IMG/VR virus record: IMGVR_UViG_3300013133_002208
Span: 1 to 20,471 of that record
Length of the DNA: 20,471 nt
Reading direction: 5' to 3' (one strand)
Source of the DNA: a virus
A program made the translations under genes and the position numbers. The notes below the pieces were generated by a model that saw only the letters and a list, made by a program, of their open reading frames with translations, was not told the origin of the DNA and searched no databases. Below, in pieces: positions 1,066-5,494 of this stretch (positions within the stretch are counted from its first letter, which is position 1; each line of letters starts with the position of its first letter).

Positions 1066-1902
1066 ATGGCTACCGCGCCCGTCCCTCGTATCAAAGCGCC
1101 CGTTCTTTCCTTACCGAAGCAACCACTCAAATCGTTTGCGGTTGCCCCCTGGATTGGGAATGGGGAGGGAGACAAGATAATTATATTCGGTAATTCGGGA
1201 ATGGGCAAAACCACACTCGCCGCAATGGCCCCTACTCCAGTGTTCGTTGGTATCGATGACGGTGGCCGGAAGATCAAACACCCAAAAACCGGGAAAGTGC
1301 TTGACCATGTTCCAGGCATTGAGACCTTTGGTGATGTTCGTGCAGCGCTTCAGAGCAACGTATTTGATAACTACGCCTCGGTTGTCCTCGATACCGTAAC
1401 CATGCTCCAGCATTGGGCTTTACCTTATATGTTCGCTACGATCCCGCACGAGAAAGGTGGCGTGGTCAAGTCTATAGAGGGGTGGGGGTGGGGAAAAGGT
1501 TATAGACACTTATTTGATGTCATGCACTTGATTCTCGCCGACTGTGACCGTCTCGTGCGTATGGGTAAGAATATCATTTTGATCGCTCAAGAGGCTGCGA
1601 TGACCGAGACCAATACCTCTGGGGAGAATTATCTAAAAGCGGGTCCCGATCTCCATCACAGCGATAAGCAGAGTGTCCGTAAAGATTATATTGCTTGGGC
1701 CGATCATGTGTTTCGTATCACTTGGGCGAACACCAAGGTCGAGGACCGTAAAATTAACCCAGTCAGTGGCCGCGTCATCAACGTCAAACCCGATGCTACG
1801 TTCGAGGCTAAGAGCCGTGGCTCGGCATTAGCCGATTGTGAGGCCGTCTCGTTCGAGCGACCGGACGATGATTCACTGTGGTCCTTACTTTTTAATCAGT
1901 AA
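1066..1902 (+). CDS. Sak4-like RecA-fold phage ATPase (AAA_24 type)
   Basis: Probable RecA-like NTPase of the Sak4 group, which promotes single-strand annealing together with a phage SSB. From ATG 1066 the protein is 278 aa. Walker A is GNSGMGKTT (residues 42-50) and Walker B is the hydrophobic strand SVVLD ending at D109. The compact, single-domain layout matches phage AAA_24 proteins. I chose ATG 1066 because GGAGG at 1053-1057 sits 8 nt upstream. An in-frame ATG at 940 overlapping the nuclease stop would add 42 codons that look like a NUMOD4 motif (separate entry). The neighbours, a RecB-like nuclease and an SSB-like protein, fit a recombination cassette. The 3' end carries a +1-frame SEC-C reading frame. 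The ATPase fold is firm; the Sak4 assignment is from memory of the family and not searched. Confidence 0.8.
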   Translation: MATAPVPRIKAPVLSLPKQPLKSFAVAPWIGNGEGDKIIIFGNSGMGKTTLAAMAPTPVFVGIDDGGRKIKHPKTGKVLDHVPGIETFGDVRAALQSNVFDNYASVVLDTVTMLQHWALPYMFATIPHEKGGVVKSIEGWGWGKGYRHLFDVMHLILADCDRLVRMGKNIILIAQEAAMTETNTSGENYLKAGPDLHHSDKQSVRKDYIAWADHVFRITWANTKVEDRKINPVSGRVINVKPDATFEAKSRGSALADCEAVSFERPDDDSLWSLLFNQ

Positions 1903-1999
1903 TGCCCCGTGTCCGTGCGGAAGCGGGCACAAGAAATGTTGTGGCAAGATCATCCCAGAGGGACTTGCAAGACTGAAATCATTGTTTGTGGAAGGGTAG
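1868..1999 (+). CDS. SEC-C zinc-motif small protein (hidden 43-codon frame)
   Basis: A 43-aa frame starts at ATG 1868 inside the ATPase 3' end and stops at TAG 1997-1999. It contains NAPCPCGSGHKKCCGK, a near-consensus SEC-C motif (PCPCGSGKKxKKCC), which binds one zinc ion and is known from the SecA C-terminus and many small or tail domains. The motif itself is too specific to be chance. No clear ribosome site precedes ATG 1868. It could be a translationally coupled small protein. Alternatively it could be the C-terminal tail of the ATPase reached by +1 frameshifting, or restored by a one-base change, at CTTTTTA 1888-1894. SEC-C motifs commonly end larger proteins, which favours the tail idea. 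Its stop precedes the next gene by two bases, and that gene's ribosome site lies within its last codons. Confidence 0.65.
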   Translation: MIHCGPYFLISNAPCPCGSGHKKCCGKIIPEGLARLKSLFVEG

Positions 2000-3211: not shown

Positions 3212-5494
3212 ATGAAGAAAGATAAACCGGATTTCGAGGACCTGGCCTTGACCTTTCAGGCCAACATGCTCCCCGGCATGACCGAGGATCTCGCGCAGAG
3301 TCTCGGCGTTACCGCCGATGCCGTGCATCGGCTCGGTGTCGGCTATTATCCGGCGGAACAGTGCTGGATATTTCCCGAACGGGATGGTGACGGCAATGTG
3401 ACCGGCCTCCTCCGCCGCTATGCGGATGGAAAGAAATATACTTGGAAAGGTTCTGAAAGAGGACTCTACTATGAATGTCTAGGTACTCAACAAAAGAACG
3501 CAGCAATACCGGAGTATCGGCCCCGATTCATTCGAGTGGGGGACGCTGGAGTACAGTGTCCGATTTGCCACAGAGAGCGGGATGGCTGTCTCGTGTCTGA
3601 TGAGGACCCAGAGGACCCCGCCTGCGTCATTTGCGTCCGAACCGCCGAAGGCGCGGAACGTTGCCTTGAAACTGGGGCTGGGTACTTCCATCGTCGTCAT
3701 ACCCAGCCTAATTATCGAGGAGGAACCGTATCTGTACTGCCTATATCGGATCAGCCGGTGGTTGTCACTGAGGGCGCGAGTGACTGCCTGGCTGCGATGG
3801 CGATGGGTTACGTGGCGGTCGGGAAGTCTAACGACACAGGCGGCAAGAATCTCGCGGGGCTACTCCAAGGCCGAGATGTCATCCTTGTCGGTGACCGTGA
3901 TCCGCACGGTGCCGGGCAGCGCGGCATGGAAGCGACTTTTCAATCGCTGCGGGAGTCTGTTCGGTCGATAGTCAAGGTTCTGCCCCCGGAAGGTAAGGGT
4001 AAAGACCTTCGGATTTGGCATCCCACTCGTGAAGAGTTCGAGGCGCACGTCAAGGCATCAGGGGACGCGGCCGACGATGGCTCCGTATTGCCGGATACCG
4101 CACCACTCACGTTGGTCAAATCGTGGATACAGCAAACTCAGATGCGTAATGGAGTTCCCTTGCTCCGGCGGGTGCACGGTGATTATTACCGTTGGGAAGG
4201 CACTGTTTACCGAAAGATTGACCAAGAGGAAATTCGAGGCGATTGGTATCAGTTCTTCACGGATCGGCAGGTTAGGGTCAAGGCTGGCAACGACATTAAA
4301 ATTACGACTTTACACCCTGATCGCAAATTCTGTGCCGACATCCACGATGCGGCATCAGCCTACTGTAATGTTCGCGTCGAGGACGGGGTACACGAGCCGT
4401 TCTCAATCAAGGCCCGCGCCCCGATGGACTTGGCTCGCGCCGTCGTATTTCAGAACGGCATCTTGTATCTCGCCGATGACCGGCTCGCCCCGCTGACCCC
4501 GGATGTGTTCCTGACGAGTACCCTGCCCTATGACTACAATCCAGCGCATACCTGCCCGCTTTGGCAGTGGTTCGTAGCGAACGTGTTCAACGGGGATCAG
4601 GAGTGCGTTGATCTGGTGCAGGAGTGGTTCGGTTACAATCTTATTGCCTCGAATCATATGCAAAGCATGATGTTTTTCTTCGGTGTGCCGGGTTCGGGCA
4701 AATCCACGATGGCGGGCGTCCTATCCGCCATGATGGGTTCAGCCCGCTGTTGCGGGGCTTCCACCGACAATTTTAAGGGTCTTTTCGGGAAGGAAACGTT
4801 ACTCAATAAATATAGTACGATTATGTCCGAGTCTCGCGACACCGGCAAAGGTGATATTGACAAACTACTACAGACGTGGAAAGCCATTACCGGCGGAGAC
4901 ATGATTAACGTGGCCCGTAAATACAAGGCCGCCGTGGACGCCCGATTGTTCTGCCGCCTGACCTATGTAGCGAATGAAGCCATTCCTTTCGATGATGTAT
5001 CACAGGCAATGGCGAATCGGATGAATTTGCTCTATTTTCCAAATAATTACCGGCGCAAGAATCCTGACCGAATGCTCGAACAAAAGCTCAAAGAGGAATT
5101 GCCGGGTATTGCCCTATGGTCCATTGTGGGTCTCAAACGCCTGTTGACGAATGATACGTTTACCGTGCCCACTGAGAGTAAGAACCATTTGGCTCAGTTG
5201 GCAGAGCTTACCAATCCAGTCGGTGTGATGTTGGAGGAATGTACGAAACTGCATATTGGGTCGGGGTTTATGGCCTATTACACCGAGTGTGGAGATCTAT
5301 ACGATCTATGGCGGGCATGGTGCGACTCCACTGGGATCAAGACGAATTTGAACGCCATCGGGTTTGGCATGAAACTATCCCACATGGAGAAGCCGTTGAT
5401 CCGTAGGCGGGTGGAGACGGCGGGTGTGCGAAAGTATGTGTACCAAGGCTTGGAAATCTTTTCTTGGGCGATGCAAAAATATCTACTGAAATAG
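3212..5494 (+). CDS. Primase-helicase: zinc finger, TOPRIM, SF3 helicase
   Basis: A 760-aa replicative protein that makes primers and unwinds DNA at the phage fork. In order: a short helical N-terminus; a zinc knuckle pair C116-x2-C119 and C138-x2-C141; a TOPRIM-like domain with E187 in TEGASD and D228/D230 in VGDRDPHG; a linker; and an SF3 (P4/D5-type) helicase with Walker A GVPGSGKST at 491-499, a Walker B-like strand ending STIMSES, and a later NRMNLLYFP segment typical of D5-type helicases. Position of the zinc motif after the first ~110 residues rather than at the very N-terminus is unusual. Start choice is uncertain: ATG 3212 has only a weak GGGG upstream, and an in-frame GTG at 3173 would add 13 residues. 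No separate helicase loader or DNA polymerase is seen in the window. Confidence 0.85.
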   Translation: MKKDKPDFEDLALTFQANMLPGMTEDLAQSLGVTADAVHRLGVGYYPAEQCWIFPERDGDGNVTGLLRRYADGKKYTWKGSERGLYYECLGTQQKNAAIPEYRPRFIRVGDAGVQCPICHRERDGCLVSDEDPEDPACVICVRTAEGAERCLETGAGYFHRRHTQPNYRGGTVSVLPISDQPVVVTEGASDCLAAMAMGYVAVGKSNDTGGKNLAGLLQGRDVILVGDRDPHGAGQRGMEATFQSLRESVRSIVKVLPPEGKGKDLRIWHPTREEFEAHVKASGDAADDGSVLPDTAPLTLVKSWIQQTQMRNGVPLLRRVHGDYYRWEGTVYRKIDQEEIRGDWYQFFTDRQVRVKAGNDIKITTLHPDRKFCADIHDAASAYCNVRVEDGVHEPFSIKARAPMDLARAVVFQNGILYLADDRLAPLTPDVFLTSTLPYDYNPAHTCPLWQWFVANVFNGDQECVDLVQEWFGYNLIASNHMQSMMFFFGVPGSGKSTMAGVLSAMMGSARCCGASTDNFKGLFGKETLLNKYSTIMSESRDTGKGDIDKLLQTWKAITGGDMINVARKYKAAVDARLFCRLTYVANEAIPFDDVSQAMANRMNLLYFPNNYRRKNPDRMLEQKLKEELPGIALWSIVGLKRLLTNDTFTVPTESKNHLAQLAELTNPVGVMLEECTKLHIGSGFMAYYTECGDLYDLWRAWCDSTGIKTNLNAIGFGMKLSHMEKPLIRRRVETAGVRKYVYQGLEIFSWAMQKYLLK

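Follow-up and report, generated by a model that had tools for sequence, protein, structure and literature searches.

The 43-codon reading frame that overlaps the end of a Sak4-like recombination ATPase gene in the window, i.e. the entire IMG/VR virus record of 20,471 bases analysed here, is in our estimate (probability of about 0.82) an overlooked small gene that is separate in its lineage and has become truncated in this genome, and not a frameshifted tail of the ATPase. This ORF extends from ATG1868 to position 1999 on the plus strand, lacks an SD, has orthologs in related viruses and is translated as MIHCGPYFLISNAPCPCGSGHKKCCGKIIPEGLARLKSLFVEG followed by a stop. It is shifted by +1 against the reading frame of the ATPase gene, whose last 35 nt it overlaps. 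The SEC-C motif itself, NAPCPCGSGHKKCCG, is encoded at positions 1901 to 1945 (plus strand), its AAT codon at 1901-1903 overlapping the ATPase stop codon TAA at 1900-1902. The frame is open upstream as far as a stop at 1829, and ATG1868 and GTG1838 are the only in-frame starts. The position and frame of the motif, the 35-base overlap, the sequence CTTTTTA at 1888-1894 and the frame reading open through the ATPase end, all reported in a first-pass annotation of this DNA, were verified.

The motif had also been described as near-perfect, which did not hold. The ligand spacing is CxC-X6-CC instead of CxC-X8-C[CH], and the Pfam SEC-C score of the window copy is 14.6 bits, below the gathering cut-off of 20.4, as compared to 29-42 bits for the orthologs in the relatives. 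The score falls below the cut-off because two residues of the metal-binding loop are missing; accordingly, a two-residue gap is needed to align the window motif to the SEC-C profile. The low Pfam score could be taken to mean that an open frame with a SEC-C-like string arose by chance, but this can practically be dismissed, since an independent profile made from 40 unrelated phage SEC-C segments, when run on the six-frame translation of the window, matches only the frame at 1868-1999 (E=1.4e-6; the runner-up has E=1). Moreover, orthologs occupy the same genomic place in related viruses, and this synteny refutes an origin by chance.

The ATPase gene (1066 to 1902, plus strand) matches the families PHROG_124 and Pfam AAA_24 with E-values of 9e-21 and 1e-24. 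Its start is most likely ATG1066, which is preceded by the SD GGAGGA (-9.3 kcal/mol) and whose position is equivalent in the relatives and the window, rather than ATG940. The latter opens the longest ATPase ORF, and the additional stretch at 940-1065, in frame with the ATPase, codes for a weakly NUMOD4-like piece, MRRIPGWPEYAVTDAGGVWSYRAKKWLRP (Pfam NUMOD4, E 0.1; HNH family PHROG_59, E 0.05). Peptides resembling this piece were found elsewhere in the relatives L003 to L006. Among isolate phages, the closest ATPases are at most 32% identical to that of the window.

A scan with the ATPase as single query did not find any relatives, and alignments were required. The six nearest relatives were obtained by a primase-based search (54-78% identity), and searches with ATPase and primase profiles widened the set to 37 ATPase relatives from IMG/VR or MAGs. 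In all six nearest relatives, a small SEC-C ORF lies downstream of the ATPase and upstream of the next conserved gene. In the whole set, 27 of the 37 relatives have such a separate ORF downstream of the ATPase, 23 of them identified by regex and four (L014, L015, L017 and L019) by eye from the ORFs; after removal of near-duplicate contigs the proportion is 25/33. This association is not circular because the contigs were retrieved by ATPase or primase and not by SEC-C. The intact proteins of the lineage have 44-130 aa, and their genes sit between the exonuclease/Sak4-like ATPase and primase genes. The slot of the mini-gene, downstream of the ATPase and before a conserved gene of 298 aa, is also that of the window copy. 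In L002 to L007 the likely SEC-C starts have a strong SD (-9.3 to -13.3 kcal/mol), and in most relatives the motif is preceded by the leader GGQxPxR, with TPKR in L002. The RLxKLKxLF tail of the window copy is a shared feature, and its conserved end LARLKSLFVEG plus stop (1964 to 1999, plus strand) has counterparts in L002 (FAKLKRMFEIGG) and L007 (LAKLKELFLGGK).

The codons of the motif provide evidence for selection at the protein level. Over 17 core codons, the window and L002 differ by 5 synonymous and 1 non-synonymous changes (pS 0.50, pN 0.024), while the ATPase genes of the two are near saturation (pS 0.75, pN 0.18). The pattern is reversed when the first 12 core codons are read in the other two frames, with 0 synonymous and three non-synonymous changes. 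Because of this synonymous excess and its reversal in the other frames, the gene was under purifying selection at the protein level for most of the divergence, the small number of codons making this an indication and not a precise estimate. Together with the common tail, the core comparison identifies the window copy as the ortholog of the relatives' separate SEC-C gene. Thus, of the two alternatives offered by the first-pass annotation, the overlooked mini-gene is supported: homologous ATPases are followed by an orthologous small SEC-C ORF in most relatives.

The window copy has lost its own SD and start as well as the GGQxPxRN leader, and its metal-binding loop is shorter by two residues. 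The SD energies at ATG1868 and GTG1838 are -2.2 and -2.5 kcal/mol, respectively, as compared to a background median of -2.8. In L002, the ATPase ends with GGAGGTAAGTAATGC and the SEC-C gene reads AAACGTAACGCCCCGTG, with AAACGTAACGCCCCG at its start. The window sequence CAGTAATGCCCCGTG is what would remain once the DNA between both GTAA[TC]GC stretches had been deleted, which suggests a deletion in the window lineage. At the putative junction (1895 to 1907, plus strand), the ATPase end AGTAATGC would have been joined through this homology to the SEC-C codons CCCGTG. As judged from the comparison with L002, a deletion at the short homology GTAAyGC would have taken the SD, start and leader of the SEC-C gene and abutted the leftover codons to the ATPase stop, giving rise to the 35-nt overlap in the +1 frame. 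A codon alignment places a further in-frame deletion of 6 nt at the AAG/AAA codons at 1931-1936 (plus strand), where relatives have HK-[YF]K-K; the loop reads HKYKKCC in L002 and HKKCC in the window. L002 bears a 5-nt direct repeat, ACAAG...ACAAG, in CACAAGTACAAGAAG, and slippage at this repeat would have dropped the 6 nt and shortened the metal loop. The tail of the window copy is also reduced, by some four to five residues relative to those of L002 and L007. All indels relative to these two genomes preserve the frame and the stop. The deletion was viewed through comparison with L002 and L007 rather than with a near-identical genome; the damage is either recent relative to the divergence or tolerated.

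The other alternative put forward earlier, that ribosomes shift into the +1 frame at CTT-TTT-A (1888-1894) and thereby add a SEC-C zinc tail to some of the ATPase, is very unlikely. Codon CTT in the P site is known to permit +1 slips, as in prfB, and in the window, as in L003, the +1 frame contains no stop across the ATPase end. However, SEC-C in L003 has a GTG start of its own at 4870, preceded by an SD, and none of the 37 ATPase relatives carries a fusion. Counted from the ATPase frame, SEC-C is in frame 0 in L002 and L108, in +1 in L003, L006, L007 and L016, and in +2 in L004, L005 and L022, and in five of these nine relatives (L002, L006, L007, L016 and L108) the SEC-C frame is interrupted by stops after the ATPase stop and before the motif. 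A conserved frame relation combined with a slippery site, as it would mark a programmed +1 frameshift, was not found in the relatives, and the C-terminal end of the ATPase is at a conserved position in the window and all relatives compared. At the site itself, TTT as the A-site codon of CTT-TTT is not a rare codon and not a stop, an SD stimulator is missing upstream, and the RNA structure downstream of CTTTTTA is not unusual (z=-0.71). Since frames vary, stops intervene, most of the checked SEC-C genes in the relatives have an SD of their own, fusions are absent and no stimulatory RNA structure was detected, the frameshift fusion was rejected. The overlap looks like a deletion product rather than a frameshift signal. 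It thereby shows clearly how the deletion of a small gene into the end of its neighbour can mimic a programmed frameshift.

By definition, the ligands in the SecA metal-binding domain are spaced as CxC-X8-C(H/C) (PMC6620043). X8 was found in all 78 of the SEC-C ORFs scored and in all intact relatives scored by regex; X6 occurs only in the window copy among the SEC-C sequences scored. A short-loop SEC-C family was also considered and rejected, as two pattern scans of IMG/VR did not yield a true second case; the broad X6 pattern gave one match in 2.9 million viral contigs, L109, an out-of-frame chance match. AlphaFold2 modelled the intact ortholog of L007 with a pLDDT of 75, and in Foldseek this model resembles the SecA zinc domain (1sx0, rmsd 1.1; 1ozb, rmsd 1.2; prob 0.87-0.89), with E-values that are not significant because the SEC-C domain is tiny. 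The window peptide, modelled with the same relatives, reached a pLDDT of 54, which is too low to judge the metal site, and metal binding by it appears doubtful. The damaged window copy amounts to a natural experiment on the minimal length of a SEC-C metal loop.

The truncated gene may be a young relic or may still be weakly translated, with about equal odds. A recently inactivated remnant without any product has close to an even chance in our view: SD, start and the conserved GGQxPxR leader have been lost and the metal loop is damaged, all in one copy, and broken SEC-C copies (34-aa ORFs) also exist in L112 and L113. There, however, the broken copy lies beside a second intact one, which is absent from the 20.5-kb window, although the record is a fragment; in addition, reading frame, stop and all four metal ligands of the window copy are intact. 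A functional 43-aa protein, which starts at ATG1868, is coupled to termination of the ATPase and binds metal through the shorter loop, is a serious but somewhat weaker candidate. It would account for the exclusively in-frame indels, the conserved stop and tail, the 5 synonymous changes against 1 non-synonymous in the core and the position of the ATPase stop 32 nt past ATG1868. Against it speak the lack of an SD, the X6 loop that no other scored SEC-C sequence has and the low confidence of the structure. The near absence of amino acid changes in the core codons and the frame-keeping indels also argue against a long-dead relic. If the frame is expressed at all, this would occur by termination-reinitiation or by a weak SD-less start at ATG1868 and not by frameshifting. 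We consider it improbable that a compact SEC-C domain with a six-residue loop is translated by coupling from the ATPase overlap, folds around a metal and acts with the ATPase; if true, it would represent a shortened SecA-like knuckle not seen before which is made in step with the recombinase.

In SecA, the metal-binding domain binds SecB and the ribosome (PMC6620043; PMC8076867), and nucleic-acid binding has been speculated for a phage SEC-C protein (PMC12038007). The gene is flanked by recombination and primase genes in most of this lineage of uncultivated phages, a position which suggests that it functions in the same module. Judged by its fold and its neighbours, the intact protein would most likely, though with a chance slightly below one half, be a small metal-knuckle adaptor in phage recombination or replication, with a surface like that of the SecA metal-binding domain for contacts to a protein, ribosome or nucleic acid during these processes. 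A putative host-directed role on SecB or the ribosome is the main alternative and appears rather unlikely.

The intact phage proteins share the GRNxPCPCGSGxKxKKCH/C motif with the C-terminal domain of SecA (SEC-C, PF02810; PDB 1sx0, 1tm6, 1ozb), L007 is predicted to adopt the same fold, and the relatives' profile matches the SecA sequence (1ozb, E 1.4e-10). In contrast, they are free-standing proteins of 44-130 aa and not a tail of SecA, and the spacing in the window copy is X6, not X8. YchJ and YecA (UPF0225 and UPF0149) are bacterial proteins other than SecA with SecA-like metal-binding domains (PMC8076867). YchJ chain 9l6b_C matches both the relatives' profile (E 4.8e-10) and the L007 model, but YchJ and YecA are larger and have no sequence similarity to the phage proteins outside the motif. 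Known phage SEC-C proteins, e.g. ORF118 of Vibrio phage vB_VneS_J26 (PMC12038007), PHROG_30159 and PHROG_24700, have the motif in common with ours, whereas in the other phage contigs found the motif is mostly the C-terminal tail of a larger ORF. Neither PHROGs nor isolate phages yielded the lineage-wide SEC-C family, and a search of isolate phages with the SEC-C protein of a longer relative gave no homolog. A general association of SEC-C with Sak4 ATPases was also rejected; no such ATPase lies within 3 kb at unrelated SEC-C loci, only at two relatives. The synteny of the two genes throughout this lineage is a modest new observation.

Several minor observations concern the same region. L112 and L113 carry two SEC-C copies downstream of the ATPase (1454-1555 and 1904-2311), a broken one of 34 aa, PCPCGSGLKFKYMEDSF, and an intact ORF of 136 codons, representing further SEC-C decay in the lineage. 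The small ORFs located between ATPase and SEC-C vary among relatives, which makes this slot a variable insertion spot; it contains an 80-aa Cys-containing ORF in L002 (4601-4860) and short hydrophobic, single-helix-like peptides in L006 (about 4684-4776) and L007 (4250-4344). Downstream of the SEC-C remnant, the window has a 62-aa ORF with an SD (2002-2190) ahead of the next conserved gene; it is missing from the relatives checked and has no family matches. The longer SEC-C proteins of L114-L119, L123, L127, L132 and L134 have an extra C-terminal Cys ribbon (CxxC...CxxC), which may point to two metal sites in the ancestral protein. Finally, the contig of L108 (WTBT01000015.1) that carries the ATPase and SEC-C genes, 50.9 kb long, belongs to a Candidatus Aegiribacteria MAG, which is a possible lead to the host or, alternatively, a binned phage contig.
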